Source: Grifola frondosa
Taxonomy: Eukaryota; Basidiomycota; Agaricomycetes; Polyporales; Grifolaceae
Direction: 5' to 3'
NCBI GenBank assembly: GCA_001683735.1
Contig: LUGG01000023.1
Span: 186,001-250,000, forward strand
DNA: 64,000 nucleotides
The notes below the pieces were generated by a model. It had not been told where the DNA came from. It searched no databases and saw only the letters and a program-made list of their open reading frames with translations. A program made the position numbers and the translations under genes. This document shows, one piece after another, positions 12,643 to 58,560 of this stretch; position 1 is the first letter of the stretch; each line of letters starts with the position of its first letter.

Positions 12643-14240
12643 ATGGCCACCCCAGCAGACCTGCTGCACTACTCCAGAACGTGAGTGTTACCAGCCATAA
12701 CCCAGTACTCTCCTCATTCACCGCCCGCTCCAGCGTCAATGCCCAGTACTCCGAATTTGCAGCGATAGGTCTGTCGCCCATCCCATCCTCGCTGGCATTC
12801 CTAATCTCAAACCTCCATTATCATCCAAAGCTCTCATGTACTATGATTGCTTCCTGTGTCTTGACCGCGAAGTGGAGTATATCTGGAAGGCGAAGTTCTC
12901 CGGGGTCTCGCTCCTGTACTACCTCAACCGCTATGGCTGCCTGATTTGCGGCTTGTTCGTTGTCCTGCACGTTCATCCGTGGTGGGGCCAGACAGACGCA
13001 GTGAGTCTTTCCACGCCTGCATCATACACTTGGAGACACCTGACGCCGTTTCAGAGGTAGCGGGCGCGACCACAGTCGTATGCAATTCGTGCTTATTCTA
13101 TATGACTTACAGCTGCAAAGTCATCATCGGCTTGGAGATGGCCACTAACATCATACAGCTGCTAGCGGTTGCAAGTACGCATCTCCTCGCCCTTGTGCGC
13201 CGCTGTGTCCCCTGATGCACTCTGGAAGTCTTCGCAGCGATCCGGGTATATGCCGTCTGCAACCGCAACAAATGCGTCTTGGCATTCGTCCTTGTCCTGG
13301 TTCTGATCCACCCCGCCATCACAACGGTGAGCGAACTGCGAGCATTTCAGCTGCACGTATGTTGAGGATGGCATTTAGTATACGTACGCCGAGTTGGCAC
13401 TGGGAGTCGTAACTACGCCGCTGGGCACCAGCTGCGGCTACTACCCCGTGATCAACCCCTACATGTTCGGCGAGTGAGTCGTGATATAATCCTCTCTTGA
13501 AGCGGCGCCCCTGACGCGTCAGGTTTGCAGCTGTCCGTATTGCTCATCATTTGATCGGGAGCGAATGATTGACTCGTCTGGACAGGGACGATGGGCGCGC
13601 GGTCCTCCGCCATCTTCGCCGACGGCCTCGTCGTCACGATCATCCTCGCCCAGACAGTCCAGCTCAGGAGACACCTAACGGGCGACGGAACAAAACGCCC
13701 GCGGATCATCACGGTACTCACTAGGGACGGTGCGCGCACGGCTCTTCCCGTCCTCTCCCCCCTCCTCCTCTCTGACGATCTTGCGCAATAGGGACGATGT
13801 ACTTCGCGTGAGTAGCAGTTCGCCCGTCTGCTGCCTCCACGTACACGCGTGACCCCCGCGCCTAGCATCCTCTGCGTAACCTACGTCGTCAGCGTGGGGC
13901 TTGGCCGGATTTTCGAGGTGAGCACCCCCCACTCCCGTCCCCGCTCCCCTCTCCCGTCCCACTCACCTCCCGCCCCGCAGTACATGGACATGATGATGTC
14001 CTGGATCTCCGGGTGCGTCTCCTCACCCCATCCCATCCCGTCCTCGCCCACCTCAGCTCATCCGCGCGCACAGCATGTCCTCGGTCCTGATGGCGCGCTT
14101 CATGCTCGAGCTGCGCGAGGCGGGGCACGGCGCGCCCGACGATGGGCTCTCCGCGCCAGGGGAGACGCTCGTCTTCGCGCACCCGTCGGCCTCGGAGCCG
14201 TGCGCTGCGCAGATGGACTCGGTGCGCGTGTGCGCGTAGG
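12360..14240 (+). repeat. Inverted segmental duplication, arm A
   Basis: This block holds DUF6533-type gene copy 1 and its 5' flank and is repeated in opposite orientation at 18400-20630. The arms share exon order, micro-exons, long identical coding stretches (for example GARSSAIFADGLVV) and upstream sequence. Confidence 0.75.
12643..14239 (+). CDS. DUF6533-type seven-TM membrane protein, copy 1
   Basis: Thirteen exons: 12643-12680, 12734-12768, 12831-13000, 13055-13056, 13113-13174, 13229-13326, 13379-13473, 13531-13532, 13586-13729, 13792-13807, 13866-13917, 13981-14012, 14074-14239. They sum to 912 nt, 303 aa, with all phases closing. The hallmark YDCFLCLDREVEYIWKAK followed by SLLYYLNRYG is the DUF6533 signature known from many basidiomycete membrane proteins. 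Hydrophobic segments follow, then MARFMLELRE near the end, typical of the family. Exons 4 and 8 are only two bases (AG and CT); without them the frame breaks and the conserved Ser-Cys and Asp-Trp are lost. No biochemical function is known for the family. A tRNA gene lies 226 bp downstream. Confidence 0.82.
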
Positions 14241-18400: not shown

Positions 18401-20630
18401 TTAAATAAGATACGGGGACCGTACCGAACAATCATCATAGCTAATAATACACGTGTTAAGAAGCCTTGCGCAATAAATAAATACGTAGTCCCACCCACGC
18501 AGGTATCTTGATCGATCATACGGCGTGTCCCATCGCATCAGCCTGCGAGCATACCGCCGCGACGCGCCCTCCGTGGCGAACACCATCGAGCCAGTGCCAG
18601 TGGTCGACGTCTGTGCGATGCTATGGTGGTCGTCGCTCGCGACCGCGGTCGACTCTGTCGCGTCCGAGCCGTGCTTAATACGAGCGTCTGCAGCGGGACG
18701 AATACCCGTCGTCGTGTGCGCCGCTCCCGATTGCGCGCAGCTCGAGCATGAAGCGCGCCATCAGGACCGAGGAGAGGCTGGGGAGGAAAGAGACGAAGGT
18801 TGGAGTGGGTAGGAGATGAAAGAGATTGGGAGGGGGACGTACCCGGAGATCCATGACATCATCATGTCCATGTACTGCGGCGGGGAGTTGAGCGCGGAGG
18901 CGAGATACGAGAGTTGCGCGCTGCTGCTCACCTCGAATATCCGACCGAGCCCCACGCTAATAACGTATACCACAAACAGAATGCTGGGGATACGTTGAGA
19001 CCACACATTCATGTCCGTGAACGTTCAGCAGAAACTCACGCAAAGTACATAGTCCCTATCGAAACGTAATAGTCAGAATGAATAGGATGGAGAGGGACTG
19101 CCAAGGCTCGCGCACCATCTCGCATGAACACCGTGATGAGCCTCGCGGCTTTTGTGCGGTGGCCCGCCAGACGCCTCCTGATTTGGATCGTCTGGAACAG
19201 GATGATGGCGACGACGAGGCCGTCCGCGAAGATGGCGGAGGATCGCGCGCCCATCGTCCCTACCCATACGAGTCAATCATGCGCTCCCGATCGATGACTA
19301 AAAATACGTACAGCTGAAAACCAGATCCGGCATGAATGTTAGACGTCGCTTGAAGTGAGAGTAATGTCATGACTCACTCGCCAAATGTGTAGGGATTGAT
19401 CACGGGGTAGTAGCTGCAGCTGGTGCCTAGCGGGGTAGTCGCCACCCCAATGCCAACTCGGCGTACGTGTACTAATCATAGTTCTCGACATCAGTGGGTA
19501 TGACGTTGCAGTAAAAGCACTCACTGTCGTGATAGCGGGGTGGATGAGAACGAGGACGAGGACGAATGCAAGCATCCAATTATTGCGGTTGCAGACGGCG
19601 TATACTCGCAGCGCGGCAAAGACTATGCAGATTTGTGTCACAAGACAGAGAAGGGCAGAAGTGTGATAAGATGCGCACCTGCGACCGCAAGTAACTGTAT
19701 GATGTTGGTGGCCATCTCGAAGCCGATAATGACTTTGCAGCTGTGATGCGATATCAGCGTCAGTGGGATTCATTGTGTTCGACCCGTTACCTCTGAAATT
19801 CCGTTAGTTGGTTCTGGCGTGGACCAAGGAGGTGTAAAGACACTCACTTGATCTGTCTGTCCCCACCATGGCTGAATGTGCAAGATCACGAAGATGCCAC
19901 ATAGCATGCCGCCATAGCGATTGAGGTAGTACAGAAGAGAGACACCAGATAATTTTGATTTCCAGATGTGTTCTACCTCGAGGTCAAAACATATCATCCA
20001 TTCATAAAACGAGAGAGCTGCAAATCGTCATGAGAATGATGCGAGCGATGATAAGAGTCTCGTGGTGACTAACCTATAGCTGCAAACTCGGAATACTGGG
20101 CACTGACGCTATGAGAAGGTGAACGACGTAAAAGACTGTCAGCAGTCACGACCAGAAACAATAGCAGTCACTCACGTCCGCGAAAAATGCAACAGTTCTG
20201 CTGGACTGGCCATCAGTGGGGATCACAGCACACCAACGGAACGTATCGCAGGACGCACCCATCTTTTATCGGCGGGAGGAGAACGGGATCATCCGCGAAT
20301 GATCTGCAACTTACTCCGACGGGGCAGTTGACCGCTGATGGTGGCGAAACGCTATCGCTAAAGAAAGTTGATCATTCCCTCCATTCGTACATGTATGACG
20401 ATTTGGGAGGAGATTGGGGTCATTTCATGGCTGTGCGGGTTAGACAGAGTTTGAATAGTTGGCACGAGAGGCAGATGGACGAAGCTCAAGAAGACGAGGC
20501 AGTGACCTGTTTTGAGCGCTCCTTCAGGAAGCGGTGATTGAGTTCTTTGCCGACTATGGGCGCCTCTTCTCGGATGCACATGGGGCAGGCAGTGCAGATA
20601 GAAGCAACGATTATGGATCACTTGCATTGA
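18400..20630 (-). repeat. Inverted segmental duplication, arm B
   Basis: Reverse-oriented counterpart of 12360-14240. It carries copy 2 of the DUF6533-type gene and about 400 bp of the matching upstream region, with many substitutions and small indels relative to arm A. Confidence 0.75.
18401..20213 (-). pseudogene. DUF6533-type membrane protein, copy 2, frame-disrupted
   Basis: It starts at 20213 with MASPAELLHFSR and preserves the exon order of copy 1, including the 2-nt exons at 19791-19792 (AG) and 19312-19313 (CT, with a GTACGT donor). The signature FDLEVEHIWKSK and the YYLNRYG motif are intact. Four one-base problems sit in short homopolymers: an extra T near 20006-20009, a missing G at 19445-19448, a missing T near 18701 and a missing A near 18675. 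With these ignored, the tail runs through STAVASDDHHSIAQTSTTG to a stop at 18401. Splice sites remain good, so the gene may be intact in nature with several sequence errors, or recently inactivated. Confidence 0.65.
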
Positions 20631-23128
20631 CCGCCGACATGTTCAGAACAAGGGTCTATGTTAGAAGAGCTCACCACAAATATGAGAATTAAGAGGATTG
20701 GGGACCATTGAGTACCGTGCCGCGACCATTTGGAGTATCGGACGGAGTCCGAGATGCCATCAAGAGCCACGCTGCTGAACGCTCCGAGATCAGTCTCGGT
20801 CCCTGTCAAAGACTATGGCACAATATTATTCCGCACCTTCTCTATGCAACAAACCATCTTGATATGCCTTAGTGATTGCAGAGCTTCCCAAGGCTCGCCA
20901 GGCCGTGATCTCAGGAACATTACGTTGATACGAAAGCCTTCTGGCAATTCATCGTCCTTCCCAAGTGACCTGTCGGAACAGAACGGGCGTTACATATCAG
21001 AGCGGCCTCAAATTGACATTGGAACACAATACCTAGTGATCCTTCAAACTGCCAAATGAAACTTAACGGCCTGATGGTAGAATTTCAGATAGCTAGAAAC
21101 CAGCTTTCACGCGATGACCACGCGGGATACTACCAAGATGAGCTTTACTGTCTGTGCCCTGTAGTCTTACACAATTGAGAAATATCGTGTGTCGGAGAAT
21201 AAATAAATAAATATTCTGCGGAGTCTATTCTACTGATGAAACAGTTAGTAACGGGTCTCGGCAATCCAATTTGAAGACCAACTTAGAAATGGACACTTCC
21301 ATAAAGGGACGCAAAACACAACCCGACAACCTAGAGATAATTCCAAGACGAATGGGTGGATACTTCTCGATGACAATAAGATGACCTATGACACACCTAG
21401 GTATCCAAGCTTCGGAGCTATGTAATGAGACTCAACAAGGCGACGATGACGCTTGGATAGGGAGCGCATTCCCTGGCATGCTCTCCGGCATGTCAATACC
21501 CTCGGGATTATCGTCGGCGAAATTTGAGTGGTCCACAATCCTTCGTAGCTCTACCGTACTGTATATCGTGCCTGTGATATCGTCATGTTCGATGGATGAT
21601 GCATTCCTGAACAAAATAGTTGTAGGATGTCCGAAAGAATCTCCAGATGTGTTTGAGTGCACTTCGTGTAGATCAAGCATGAAACGGCACATCATGATTG
21701 CCGTCATTCTGTGAGTGAAATTTAGTATGCTTATAGTAGCAACCATGTATTGCACTCACATGGATATCCATGTCGACATGGCAAAGGTGTACTAAACACA
21801 ATCGTTAACAGCACCTCAGAGCAAGACATCGGATTCCACACTTACGGAACCATAGAATGGTCGATTCATGACCAGGCCACCTATATTAACGACCAAGAGG
21901 ATCCTATACAAATGAATTGACTCGACATCGTCATAGCTGCAGGTGTGCAACTCACAAGAAATACATGGTACCTTCAATATATCAGCATTTTAACTTTGAG
22001 AACAAAAGGCACAACAACGTACCATCTCTCATGACGATTGAAGCGAAAGTTGTTCTTATTTCACATTCCATGGCTTCTGCCCTCATGCGAAAGGTCTTGG
22101 CCCATGTAAGTCCCAAAACTGCAGCATCTGCCACTACTGAAGATGCTCGAGCACCGAAATACCCTACATAAATATACTGCGTTGATTTGAAATTTATGGG
22201 TTGATTTGCTCATATACGTACAGCTGATCCTGATGTAAGAATTGATTGTAACAAAACGAAAAAGCGAGCACTCACTCTGCCGTTATTTCTACAGATTGGT
22301 TTTCGACGACGCCACACGCTTCTATCGTGAGAGTGTTCACTCTAGGTGTGTTTATGATATACTGATACTAATTGCATGCATTAGTCCACTGACACTGGCG
22401 CATGATCTCATAGACGTACGAGAGAAATTGCCGGGTTAACCAGACCCAAAGCTAGCGTGAATATAAGTACCCACTTGTTACGACCCCAAAGGGCATAAAC
22501 TCGTAAGGCGGAGAAGACTGTACCGCTATCAGACAGCACAGAGAAAGAAGGGTAGTGGGACTCACTGGCCGCGCCACAAAGTAGCACAAAATTCATCCCC
22601 ATCTCAGCTCGAACGTATATGGTACAACTAATGCACGCGCTGTTGAATACGTTGATGTCATCTGGTTGAATACTCTCACCTCTACATAAACTATCAGATG
22701 TTAAATCGCAGAGTAGTCAGGGACGATTTACCTCCGTGGTCATATCCCGCCCTGGTATGATGTCAAGAATTACGAAGACCGTGCTAAACACCGCAGAATA
22801 TCGAACGAGATAAAAAACCAGCGTCGCGATTGAGATCTTTGCCCGCCACATATGCTGGACCTCGCTGCCAAGAGTGAGAAAGTAATCATAGCAAATCAAA
22901 GCTACATAAGAAGAAAGTCAGACTTTCATTTACCATAAAACCATAAGAACACACCAGCTGCCGAGACGTATAACATCAATACGACGGACCTGTGGTCAAG
23001 CAAAGAACACCTGAGCTTTCGGTGTGACGTGAATAGCAAATAGCGCTCACGTTTCATACCAGTCGGTGCTGTATTCTTGCGGTGATATCGAGTCAGCCAT
23101 GAGCGGCGTAATGCGGCTTGCACAGTAG
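20630..23128. repeat. Tandem segmental duplication, unit 1
   Basis: About 2.5 kb that recurs in direct orientation at 23389-25881 with an offset near 2.75 kb. It includes DUF6533-type copy 3, its 3' flank with the AT-rich 'gaataaataaataaatattc' tract and further downstream sequence. Confidence 0.85.
21432..23100 (-). CDS. DUF6533-type seven-TM membrane protein, copy 3
   Basis: Thirteen exons (23051-23100, 22955-22989, 22732-22901, 22680-22681, 22566-22627, 22420-22517, 22276-22367, 22222-22223, 22023-22163, 21956-21971, 21846-21903, 21760-21791, 21432-21708) give 1035 nt, 344 aa, all in phase. The signature CYDYFLTLGSEVQHMW precedes LVFYLVRYSAV. The micro-exons AG (22680) and CT (22222) complete Ser-Cys and Asp-Trp as in copy 1. 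The hydrophilic tail after MCRFMLDLHE is about 90 aa. Most exon lengths match copy 1 exactly, although the proteins have diverged, which marks it as an older paralog. Function is unknown. Confidence 0.82.
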
Positions 23129-23388: not shown

Positions 23389-25881
23389 AACCGCCAACAA
23401 AGGGTATACGTTAGAAGAACTCACCACATATATGATAATTAAGAGGATTGGGAATCAGTGAGTACTGTCCCGCGGCCACTTGGAGTATCGGATCGAGTCC
23501 GAGATGCTATCAAGAGCCACGCTGCTGAACGCTCAGAGACAAGTCTCGGTCCCTGTCGAAGGTTATGGCACAGCATTATTCCGCACCTTCCGTATACAAC
23601 GAAACATCTTGATACGCCTTAGTGATTGCTGAGATTCGAAAGGCTCGCCAGGTCATGATCTCAGGAACATAACGTTGATACGAAAGCCTTCTGGCAATTG
23701 ACCTGTCGGAACCAAACCGGTGATGCATATCAAAATGGCCTCAAACTGACATCGGAACGCAATACCTGGTGATCCTTCAAACTGCCAAATGAAAATTAAC
23801 GGCATGATGGTGGAGTTTTAGAAAGCTCTTGATACCCTAGCAAATTGTTTTCATGCCATGACCATGTGGGATACTACCAAGACGAGCTTTACTGCCTGTG
23901 TCTTGTAGTCGTATTAGATTGACACATATCGTGTGTCAGAGAATAAATAAATAAATATTCTGCGGATTCATCCTACTGATGAAACAGTTAGTAACAGCTT
24001 TCGACGATCCCCTTGAAGAAGACCGGCTTACAAAATAGACACTTTTATACATAAGTGCAAGATAGCAACGACGATCTAGACACAATTACAAGACGAATGG
24101 GTGAGATACGTCTTGGTGATGATGGGATGACCTGAACACACCTATCTAAGGTTCTTAGCTATCTAACGGAACTCAACAGTGCGATGATCACACTTGAATA
24201 GATAGCGCATCCCTGGGCAGTGTGCTCTCCGCCACGTCAATACCCTCGGGGCCATCGTCGGCGAAATTTGGATCGTCCACGGTCCTTCGTAGCTCTACCG
24301 TGCTGTATATCGTGCCTGTGATATCGTCATGTTCGACGCACGTTGCATTCCTGAACACGATAGTTGTAATGGCATATCCCATTGAATCTCCAGATATGTT
24401 TGAGTCCGCTTCATGTAAATGAAGCATGAAACGGCACATCATGATCGCGGTTATTCTGTGAATGGAAGTTAGTGTGGATGGTGGTAACAATCATATTGCA
24501 CGTACATGGCTATCCATGTCGACATGGCATAGATGTACTGAACGCATTTGTTAATGGCACCTCATACACAGTAAGGCATCGGATTCCAAACTTACGGAAC
24601 CATTGAAAGGTCGATTCATGACCAGACCAGCTATATTGATGACCAAGAGGATCCTAGACAAATGAATTGGCTCGACATCAACATAGCTGCAGGTGTGCAA
24701 CTTACAAGAAATACATGGTACCTTCAATATATTAGTATATGAACTTTGAGGGAAAACATATATCAACGTACCATCCCTCATGAGAATTGCAGCAAAAGTT
24801 GTTCTTATTCCACACTCCATGGCTTCTGCCCTCATGCGAAAGGTTTTGGCCCATGTGAGTCCCAAAACTGCAGCATCTGCGACTACTGAAGATGCTCGAG
24901 CACCGAAATACCCTACATAAATATACTGCATTTATTTGAAAATTCTGTGTTGATTTGCTTATCTACGTACAGCTGATCTCGATGTAAGAATCAATTGTAG
25001 CAAAGCGAAAAAGCGAGCACTCACTCTTCCGTTATTTCTGCGGGTTGCTGTGAGACGACGCCGCACGATTCTATCGTGAAAGTGTTCACTCCAGGTATGT
25101 TTATGATATACTGGTACTAATCGCGTGCATTAGTCCACTGACGCTGGGGCATGACCTCATAGACGTACGAGAGAAATTGCCGGGTTAACTAGACCCAAAG
25201 CTAGCGTGAATATAAGTACCCACTTGTTACGACCCCAAAGGGCATAAGCTCGTAAGGCGGAGAAGGCTGTATCGCTGTGAGACAGCACAGAGAAAGAAGA
25301 GTAGTGGGACTCACTGGCCGCGCCACAAAGTAGCACAAAATTCATCCCCATCTCAATTCGAACATAAACAGTACAACTGATGTACTCGCTGTTGAATACT
25401 GTCGATGTCGTCTGGTTGAATACTCTCACCTCTATACAAACTATCAGATGCAAAATCGCAAGGTGGTCGGGGACGACTTACCTCCATGGTCATATCCCGC
25501 CCTGGTATGATGTCAAGAATTACGAAGATCGTGCTGAACAATGCAGAATATCGAACGGCGTAAAAAACCAGCGTCGCGATTGAGATCTTTGTCCGCCAGA
25601 TGTGCTCGACCTCGCTGCCAAGAGTGAGGAAGTAATCGTAGCAAAACAAAGCTACATGAGAAGAAAGTCGGTATTTCATTCGACATGAAAACATGAGAAC
25701 GCACCAGTTGCCGAGACGTATAACATCAGTACGATGGACCTGCGGTCAAGCAAAGAACACCTGAGCTTTTGGTGTGACGTAAATGGTAAATAGCGCTCAC
25801 GTTTCGTACCAGTCGGTGCTGTATTCTTGCGGTGATATCGAGTCAGCCATGACGGGAGTAATGCGGCCTCACACAGTAGCA
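23389..25881. repeat. Tandem segmental duplication, unit 2
   Basis: Direct repeat of 20630-23128 carrying DUF6533-type copy 4. The end of homology is visible just upstream of the start codon, where the units diverge (around 23128 and 25881). Confidence 0.85.
24188..25850 (-). CDS. DUF6533-type seven-TM membrane protein, copy 4
   Basis: Thirteen exons (25801-25850, 25705-25739, 25482-25651, 25430-25431, 25315-25376, 25169-25266, 25025-25116, 24971-24972, 24772-24912, 24706-24721, 24596-24653, 24506-24537, 24188-24455) total 1026 nt, 341 aa. It is a close tandem sister of copy 3: CYDYFLTLGSEVEHIW, LVFYAVRYSAL, DWYFGARASSVVADA, MCRFMLHLHEAD. Both 2-nt exons are present with GTGAGA and GTACGT donors. 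The tail differs from copy 3 in length by 9 nt and by many substitutions, showing that both copies are drifting while staying open. Confidence 0.82.
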
Positions 25882-56712: not shown

Positions 56713-57429
56713 GGTGATGAAGGGTAGTGTTCTTCGCGACTGGTTAATATAAGGATGGCGGCTGTTGCTGCAGTTCTGTTCGTTGCGAACTGTAAGTCCA
56801 CAAAGCCATTAAATACAGCATCTTTCATGGGTGCCGCAAGCTTACGACAACGCCAACCTCACTTGCCGCACAACCTTACAAAGAAAGATGCGGCTCCACA
56901 AAAAGCTTGAAGTCGGCGAAATGTTGTGAGCGACATATCGGGTGCAATAAAGCAATGCGGTTGAGCACTCAACCGTAGGTGATAAACACAGGCTCTCACT
57001 ATAGTATTTTGGAAATGGGTTGCGAAACAAACAATGAGCGATCCGCGTACGTCGTCGGAACCGTGCACAATGCTCCGACAAAAGCTGTGCTAAGTTGGGA
57101 AGGGAAGCGCCCACAGGCGCCCAGTCCCAACGTGCAAACCTGCCAGAACCTGCATCGATGGAAAAGACCTGCAACGCATGAAGAAGGTAGATATTTCTGC
57201 TATATTGGAAGTTCCTACAAACAATCGGTGCCCTTTGGCGATACTAGCCGCTGCACCCATACAACAATCGCCAGCCGAAAGGTCCAAAACACCATTATCA
57301 ATGGTCATAGGTCTGTGTCTGTGATCTTTCCGCGTATGTCGCCATATCAATCCATCAGTTTTAGCTCTCACATATTTCTACAGTCTTTTGCGAATGTATA
57401 GATCGCATTGAAGTAGAATACCCCAGAAT
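56713..57429. other. Intergenic, no gene seen
   Basis: Short frames on both strands; probable promoter of the aldehyde dehydrogenase at the left. Confidence 0.45.
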
Positions 57430-58560
57430 TCGAGGTTCTCCGGCGCTTCGCTCTTCTGCTATCTCAATCGCTGCGACATGCTTTGCGATATATTTGTGAT
57501 ATTGCACATACAGCCGTGACGGGGCCATTAGTTGAAGTAAGCCTTTCCATATTTACACGCGCTCCGTGATGGACTGACGTGTCTCAGAGCTGATCCATCG
57601 ATCGCCGTTGATGATCATCGTTTGATCCACAGCCTTCGCCACGCTCCGAATATACCCATTCTGCGGTTAGCACCAAGTGGATGCTGGTGAGTCTGTTCTG
57701 ACCTCCGTTTTGATGAGGACATCCGTTCATCACAACTGTGAGTCATAGACGGTTACCAGTTGCCGGTGGGGTCGGAGATGTTGACTGACATGCGCACACC
57801 TATGTTGAATTAGTATTGGGATGTTGATCGCCCCGTTGCAGCTACTATCCCGTCAGTGATCTCTTCAAATTTGAGTGGTGAATGTTACATTCCGATGGTT
57901 ATATTGTGGTTTAGCTGTGCGTAAATTGTCGTCATTCTGAGCGCATCTTGCTAATCGAAATCCTCCAGATACAACGGAAACAAGGTCTTCTGATGCTATC
58001 TTTCTAGACGGTCTGGTGGCTATCATCACGCTGTTCAAACTACGAGAATCTGGAGGCGCATGACAAACGACAGGACCGAGGCCACGAGTACCATCACAGA
58101 TACTACGATGGATAGTGCGAACGCTGTTCCGCTTCATTTCCTCCTCTCTGTCCAACCCTACGGGGGACTATGTATTTCGCGTGAGTCGATTTTGCGCTCT
58201 ATTCATGCGCATATACTGACACCCTGAATCTCATTCACGATCTATCTAGTCACTAGGTCTCACAGAAAGTATTTGAAGTGAGTTGCAATATTTTCTACCA
58301 TTCAAACACGCACTCAACTGCCATTAGTACACGGACATGTTAATGTCCTGATTTCCGGGTACGTGGAAGGGCGGGCTCCATACTCGAGCTCCAAGAAGTT
58401 GGGTTCGACGAGCACGATGACGGCTACTTCGTCCCGCTGCAGACTTTCATACTCAAACACCGCACGTCCGAATTGATCACCGACTCCATTGAAGCACTCC
58501 GGTACGGACCTAGCAGCCCTTGCTCAGACATCGGCCATTATCATCGGGTCAATGGCCTTC
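57430..58560 (+). pseudogene. DUF6533-type membrane protein, copy 5, relic
   Basis: Recognisable fragments in order: FSGASLFCYLNRCDMLCDIF and VILHIQP (compare copy 2), a piece matching the YYPV segment, SSDAIFLDGLVAIITLFKLR (compare SSAIFADGLVVAIILFQ), GTMYFA, YTDMLMS, and LQEVGFDEHDDGYFVPLQTF in the tail. Stops, frameshifts and missing exons break the gene, and the 5' exons are absent. A 2-nt CT exon context (tttag-ct-gtgcgt at 57911-57922) survives; the AG exon has lost its donor. It is the most decayed member of the family here and lies about 31 kb from copy 4. Confidence 0.7.

Follow-up and report, generated by a model that had tools for sequence, protein, structure and literature searches.

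A probable two-nucleotide exon of constant length and phase in DUF6533 genes of Grifola frondosa

Whether two nucleotides flanked by introns can form a coding exon is the question raised by four adjacent genes of Grifola frondosa, one on the forward and three on the reverse strand of the window that we analysed (a stretch of 64,000 nucleotides, bases 186001-250000 of a 1,066,478-base contig in a 39-Mb assembly). These genes encode seven-helix membrane proteins of the DUF6533 family (PF20151), with scores of 59.2 and 50.2 bits against a gathering score of 24.1 in a Pfam scan of copies 1 and 4. Each copy was modelled with 13 exons, and all four share AG as exon 4, CT as exon 8 and a length of 16 nt for exon 10 (Table 1); in copies 3 and 4, the exon 5 acceptor was placed 12 nt further downstream, which gives an exon 5 of 62 nt there too. 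Judged from the DNA, CT would be a real and constitutive 2-nt coding exon between two ordinary short spliceosomal introns, a reading to which we assign a probability of roughly 0.88.

Table 1. Positions of the modelled features within the window.
Feature	Position	Strand	Basis
Copy 1, DUF6533 gene, 13 exons, open frame	12643..14239	+	gene model; PF20151 E = 4.1e-16
Copy 1 exon 4, AG (2 nt)	13055..13056	+	model and aligner
Copy 1 exon 7 (95 nt), final GA in phase 2	13379..13473	+	gene model
Copy 1 intron 7 (57 nt), gtgagt...gcag	13474..13530	+	gene model
Copy 1 exon 8, CT (2 nt)	13531..13532	+	model and aligner
Copy 1 intron 8 (53 nt), gtccgt...acag	13533..13585	+	gene model
Copy 1 exon 9 (144 nt), first letters GG	13586..13729	+	gene model
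Copy 1 exon 10	13792-13807	+	gene model
Copy 2, frameshifted in exon 7 (94 nt); listed end is the model cut-off point	18681..20213	-	gene model
Copy 2 exon 4, AG	19791..19792	-	model and aligner
Copy 2 exon 7	19471-19378	-	
Copy 2 exon 8, CT	19312..19313	-	model and aligner
Copy 2 exon 10	19055-19040	-	gene model
Copy 3, DUF6533 gene, open frame	21432..23100	-	gene model
Copy 3 exon 4, AG	22680..22681	-	model and aligner
Copy 3 exon 8, CT	22222..22223	-	model and aligner
Copy 3 exon 10	21971-21956	-	gene model
Copy 4, DUF6533 gene, open frame	24188..25850	-	gene model; PF20151 E = 2.8e-13
Copy 4 exon 4, AG	25430..25431	-	model and aligner
Copy 4 exon 8, CT	24971..24972	-	model and aligner
Copy 4 exon 10	24721-24706	-	gene model
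L049, DUF6533-like remnant	57358-57528	+	

The initial annotation had pointed out the CT in all four copies, and both its positions and its letters were right: the site reads CAG-CT-GTACGT in copies 2 to 4 and CAG-CT-GTCCGT in copy 1. The codons given there could be reproduced as well, with GA from exon 7 (phase 2), CT and GG from exon 9 (phase 1) combining to GAC TGG, that is, Asp-Trp. Any in-frame join of exons 7 and 9 requires 2 nt (modulo 3) between them. With CT included, copies 1, 3 and 4 have ATG-to-stop open frames of 304, 345 and 342 codons (stop counted); skipping CT introduces a premature stop at codon 213, 204 or 267, respectively (for copy 1, this amounts to a 112-nt intron and a broken frame), and retention of either intron 7 or intron 8 also causes a premature stop in each of these three copies. 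Copy 2 keeps the site and loses its frame in exon 7, which measures 94 nt against 95 in copy 1, so that this copy is either a pseudogene or carries a sequencing error and is uninformative on the protein. Single frameshifts appear in the aligner output of several other loci, too, and some of them may be assembly errors. The earlier claim that two 2-nt exons per gene are kept across diverged paralogs holds insofar as both are found in all four copies, but these form two close pairs (protein identity of 85% between copies 3 and 4 and of 80% between copies 1 and 2) and therefore represent only about two independent lineages.

A wider view came from two protein searches that yielded 134 match clusters besides the four copies. 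From these, 52 loci were examined in a non-random choice (some were best matches, the first 20 were taken for exon 9 matches or closeness, and the rest were spread over contigs), making up 56 loci together with the window copies and including a weak, degenerate DUF6533-like remnant inside the window (L049). Exons were called with a splice-aware aligner of protein profile against DNA that permits 2-nt exons and codons split by introns, with the profile columns for the Asp, the Trp and the exon 4 Ser zeroed and hence neutral. A 2-nt exon 8 at the same codon boundary was called in 50 of the 56 loci of this genome (40 of 44 initial loci, 8 of 12 further ones and 2 of 4 earlier misses that were regained with a second profile), by an aligner that is not fully independent of the hypothesis since its profile consists of our own models with the exon plus one database protein. 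Grouped by identity, 44 of 50 clusters are positive at 80%, 23 of 28 at 60%, 15 of 20 at 50% and 4 of 8 at 40%. The letters of exon 8 in the positive loci are AT (32), CT (7), AC (7) and GC (4), and the constancy of length and phase under such changing letters supports the earlier suggestion that splicing of these genes is constrained. Exon 8 would rank as a constitutive micro-exon by size (2 nt, where at most 15 nt is asked for), by its coding position and by canonical splice sites (AG before and GT after in the 50 loci), and it is also required for the reading frame in copies 1, 3 and 4 and conserved among relatives within this genome. A paralog that lacks intron 7 or intron 8 and has exon 8 fused to its neighbour was not found among the 56 loci.

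No 2-nt exon 8 was called in the remaining six of the 56 loci. The site could not be modelled in L076, in L079 and in the remnant L049, and in L078 the reading is lost after exon 7. The other two, L087 and L088 (in C22 and C24), belong to a divergent DUF6533 group and by eye show an exon 8 of 8 nt in the same phases, which possibly marks a route between 2 and 8 nt. Elsewhere, L056 (C2:39788-43737) is a broken copy of the L047 gene, in which the last exons are replaced by unrelated sequence and the CT site is retained. L033 (C17) and L034 (C25) are near-identical in their DNA, and the several more such pairs among C17, C22 and C25 are perhaps haplotype duplicates in the assembly.

The CT site is more than a product of chance. 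Dinucleotide shuffles of the interior between exons 7 and 9 generated an AG-NN-GT of fitting geometry at a mean of 7.6% per gene, and one with splice scores at least as high as observed at a mean of 0.27% (40 genes each; 2.8% in the worst gene, L062). Introns 7 and 8 have mean lengths of 57.6 and 56.3 nt, compared to 56.4 nt for 346 other introns. Elsewhere in the genes, 589 introns yielded just two calls of tiny exons (at most 3 nt), and neutral column pairs set at six decoy places gave 0 of 20 tiny exons at each of them. Using the full profile, exon 8 was recovered in 18 of 20 genes (L048 and L061 failed), and after removal of the site columns, a change in favour of skipping, in 17 of 20 (copies 1 and 3 and L048 failed, and the path differs in L064). 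A ban on tiny exons, which also takes out exon 4 where present, lowered the score by 0-38 units, with a loss of zero in L030 and L060 and little loss in L048 and L062. The earlier hint at a role for strong donors found no support: intron 8 donors score 3.82 versus 3.68 for the other donors of the same 50 genes (filtered; Mann-Whitney p = 0.42), and a compensatory role of stronger intron 8 donors, hinted at by unfiltered values of 3.97 versus 3.26 in 40 genes, was dropped when the difference disappeared after filtering.

Three other readings were weighed and rejected as the main explanation. The one that survives best gives exon 8 a length of 7, 8 or 11 nt and an acceptor a few bases upstream, so that the cell would not make a 2-nt exon. 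GenBank proteins of this contig, decoded by hand, agree with it: an 8-nt exon, GATCAGCT, accounts for P0002 (copy 3), and a 7-nt exon, ATCAGCT, together with a different exon 9 acceptor, for P0001 (copy 4); the 8-nt form also emerges under the ban on tiny exons and has its counterpart in the 8-nt exon 8 seen by eye in L087 and L088. However, only 3 of 50 genes have the AG exactly 6 nt upstream that the 8-nt form requires, two different solutions would have to be assumed for copies 3 and 4 despite their 85% identity, and the substitutes for exon 8 under the ban vary from gene to gene, so that we consider a longer exon improbable.

Still less probable is a single intron that links exon 7 to exon 9 via another donor or acceptor with nothing in between. 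In-frame open alternatives at most 45 nt away do exist for the acceptor in 15 of 50 genes (with a partial stop check for acceptors inside exon 9) and for the donor in 37 of 50, but any one alternative acceptor position is common to at most 3 genes and the commonest alternative donors are present in 21 (40 nt upstream) and 14 (32 nt downstream) of the 50 genes. Moreover, such an intron would have to be about double the usual length, and chance does not explain an AG-NN-GT of such quality in the middle of the stretch. Least probable of all is a stwintron, an intron nested in the splice site of another and removed in two steps with no coding remnant; such elements are known in fungi and reportedly require two consecutive reactions, but in the window copies both introns are complete and canonical and the frame requires 2 nt (modulo 3). 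A recursive splicing site, with abutting acceptor and donor inside a long intron, was also discarded because 2 coding nucleotides lie between the two and the stretch in copy 1 measures 112 nt.

Read as a constitutive 2-nt exon, exon 8 would complete one codon with its first letter and open the next codon with its second, where the predicted fifth transmembrane helix begins, as part of an old architecture of the DUF6533 family. The second codon that it touches encodes Leu in 38, Trp in 7, Phe in 4 and Ser in 1 of the 50 genes; an exon 8 ending in C leads to a CTN codon, always Leu, and one ending in T mostly to TTR or TGG. The two letters behave like parts of intron-split codons. A coupling of the last base of exon 8 with the first two bases of exon 9 is only suggestive (Fisher p = 0.038 for 42 of the 50 genes, with seven GG cases and one CT case dropped and related genes counted apart). 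Selection on the reading frame would keep the 2 nt and the phase (2 in, 1 out), and the letters could change as far as the encoded residues allow, most of these being Leu and others Trp and Phe. The splicing machinery recognises short introns of fungi across the intron, and this mode of intron definition would presumably apply to each of the two introns that flank exon 8. Since 2 nt leave no room for a splicing complex on either side at the same time, one complex would have to leave before the second intron can be used, and we infer from the geometry of the site that introns 7 and 8 would be removed stepwise, one after the other. Taken more broadly, we lean towards the view that an expanded receptor-like family of mushroom-forming fungi, which probably numbers more than 100 genes in this genome and extends to other Polyporales, requires an obligatory 2-nt exon throughout and a second one in part of its members, with strictly consecutive intron removal in each transcript, selection on length and phase rather than on sequence, and public gene models that are widely wrong there.

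The companion 2-nt exon 4 offers a natural control. Its skipping leads to a stop at codon 93 in copies 1, 3 and 4. Among the 56 loci, 15 have a 2-nt exon 4 followed by a 62-nt exon 5, and 27 were called with a single 64-nt exon that starts in phase 0, of which 19 begin with AG and 26 are trusted (L079 was dropped as unreliable); 14 loci belong to neither class. In loci that lack intron 4, exon 5 directly takes in the same two coding positions, in keeping with the model of a 2-nt exon 4.

Conservation of exon 8 in other species was viewed through protein models only. In an alignment of 15 database proteins, the exon 8 site shows insertions of varied length in 8 of them (P0001, P0002, P0003, P0008, P0009, P0012, P0013 and P0015), a deletion in P0005 and neither in the other 6 (P0004, P0006, P0007, P0011, P0014 and P0016). 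Gene-prediction programs appear to be wrong at this site: such scars are what predictors unable to place a 2-nt exon would leave, and some of the insertions could be genuine longer exons. P0004 and P0011 have contiguous frames of 311 and 309 amino acids on contigs of at most 1320 and 1484 nt, which is too short for a dozen introns, so that they are probably spliced transcripts, with intronless genes fitting equally well. In both proteins, the number of residues from the conserved Cys to the conserved Arg equals that of our models with CT.

The predicted structure of the relative P0004 (mean pLDDT 77.6 with the 15-row alignment) has seven long helices, in agreement with seven transmembrane helices in DUF6533 proteins. 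Exon 4 maps to residue 84 at the start of helix 3, adjoining Cys85, and exon 8 to residues 165-166 in the first turns of helix 5. The best PDB matches to this model are mostly class A G-protein-coupled receptors with TM-scores of about 0.4-0.5, and only 4 matches have E <= 0.001; the model supports a receptor-like bundle as the predicted fold and leaves common descent with G-protein-coupled receptors unsupported. It also contains a two-stranded hairpin with Cys152 before helix 5, and Cys85 stands at the start of helix 3, a placement that we take to resemble the conserved disulphide of G-protein-coupled receptors. The 2-nt exons also suggest that DUF6533 proteins are often mis-modelled in databases, with residues added or lost where helices 3 and 5 start.

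Among the closest published cases is the one-nucleotide exon of CYP621A in Fusarium, which has the same letter in all 24 genes at one position and is supported by RNA reads and by a relative without introns (PMC12940212). Similar to our exon, it is fungal, was deduced from a phase clash and a total intron length of about twice the median, and had been missed by gene models; unlike it, the DUF6533 exon has 2 nt, varies in its letters, has a second such exon beside it in some genes of the family and is predicted from sequence. The same source mentions exons of 2-5 bp for Arabidopsis, Drosophila and humans (PMC12940212, 2026). The one-nucleotide exons of plant APC11 and VPS55 (PMC4674806, PMC8831610) share with exon 8 that they are ultra-short, constitutive and widely missed in annotation and that their authors suggest consecutive intron removal, but they measure 1 nt, lie in single or few-copy genes and were tested experimentally; for the Arabidopsis exon, consecutive removal is argued with reference to a 9-nt potato exon whose second intron is removed first (PMC4674806). 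The P450 genes of Phanerochaete chrysosporium are another multigene family of a white-rot basidiomycete with short introns and small exons, differing in a shortest reported exon of 6 bp and in the alternative splicing proposed for them (PMC1184071).

Our searches of the open-licence literature brought up no gene family in which 2-nt exons are conserved; one-nucleotide exons are already on record, and 2-nt exons that come in pairs and span a family seem to be new. Exons of one or two bases probe the lower limit of the spliceosome with few documented cases, and dozens of natural 2-nt variants (AT, CT, AC and GC) are a ready-made test of splicing order, fidelity and sequence needs. The DUF6533 domain and seven predicted transmembrane helices are shared with SNB1 of Coprinopsis cinerea, a protein required for fruiting-body patterning; the word "intron" is absent from the main text of the SNB1 paper (PMC10949477).

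All four copies and most other modelled loci have an exon 10 of exactly 16 nt, a third micro-exon of the DUF6533 family, which codes for a portion of the conserved RDGTxYF motif.
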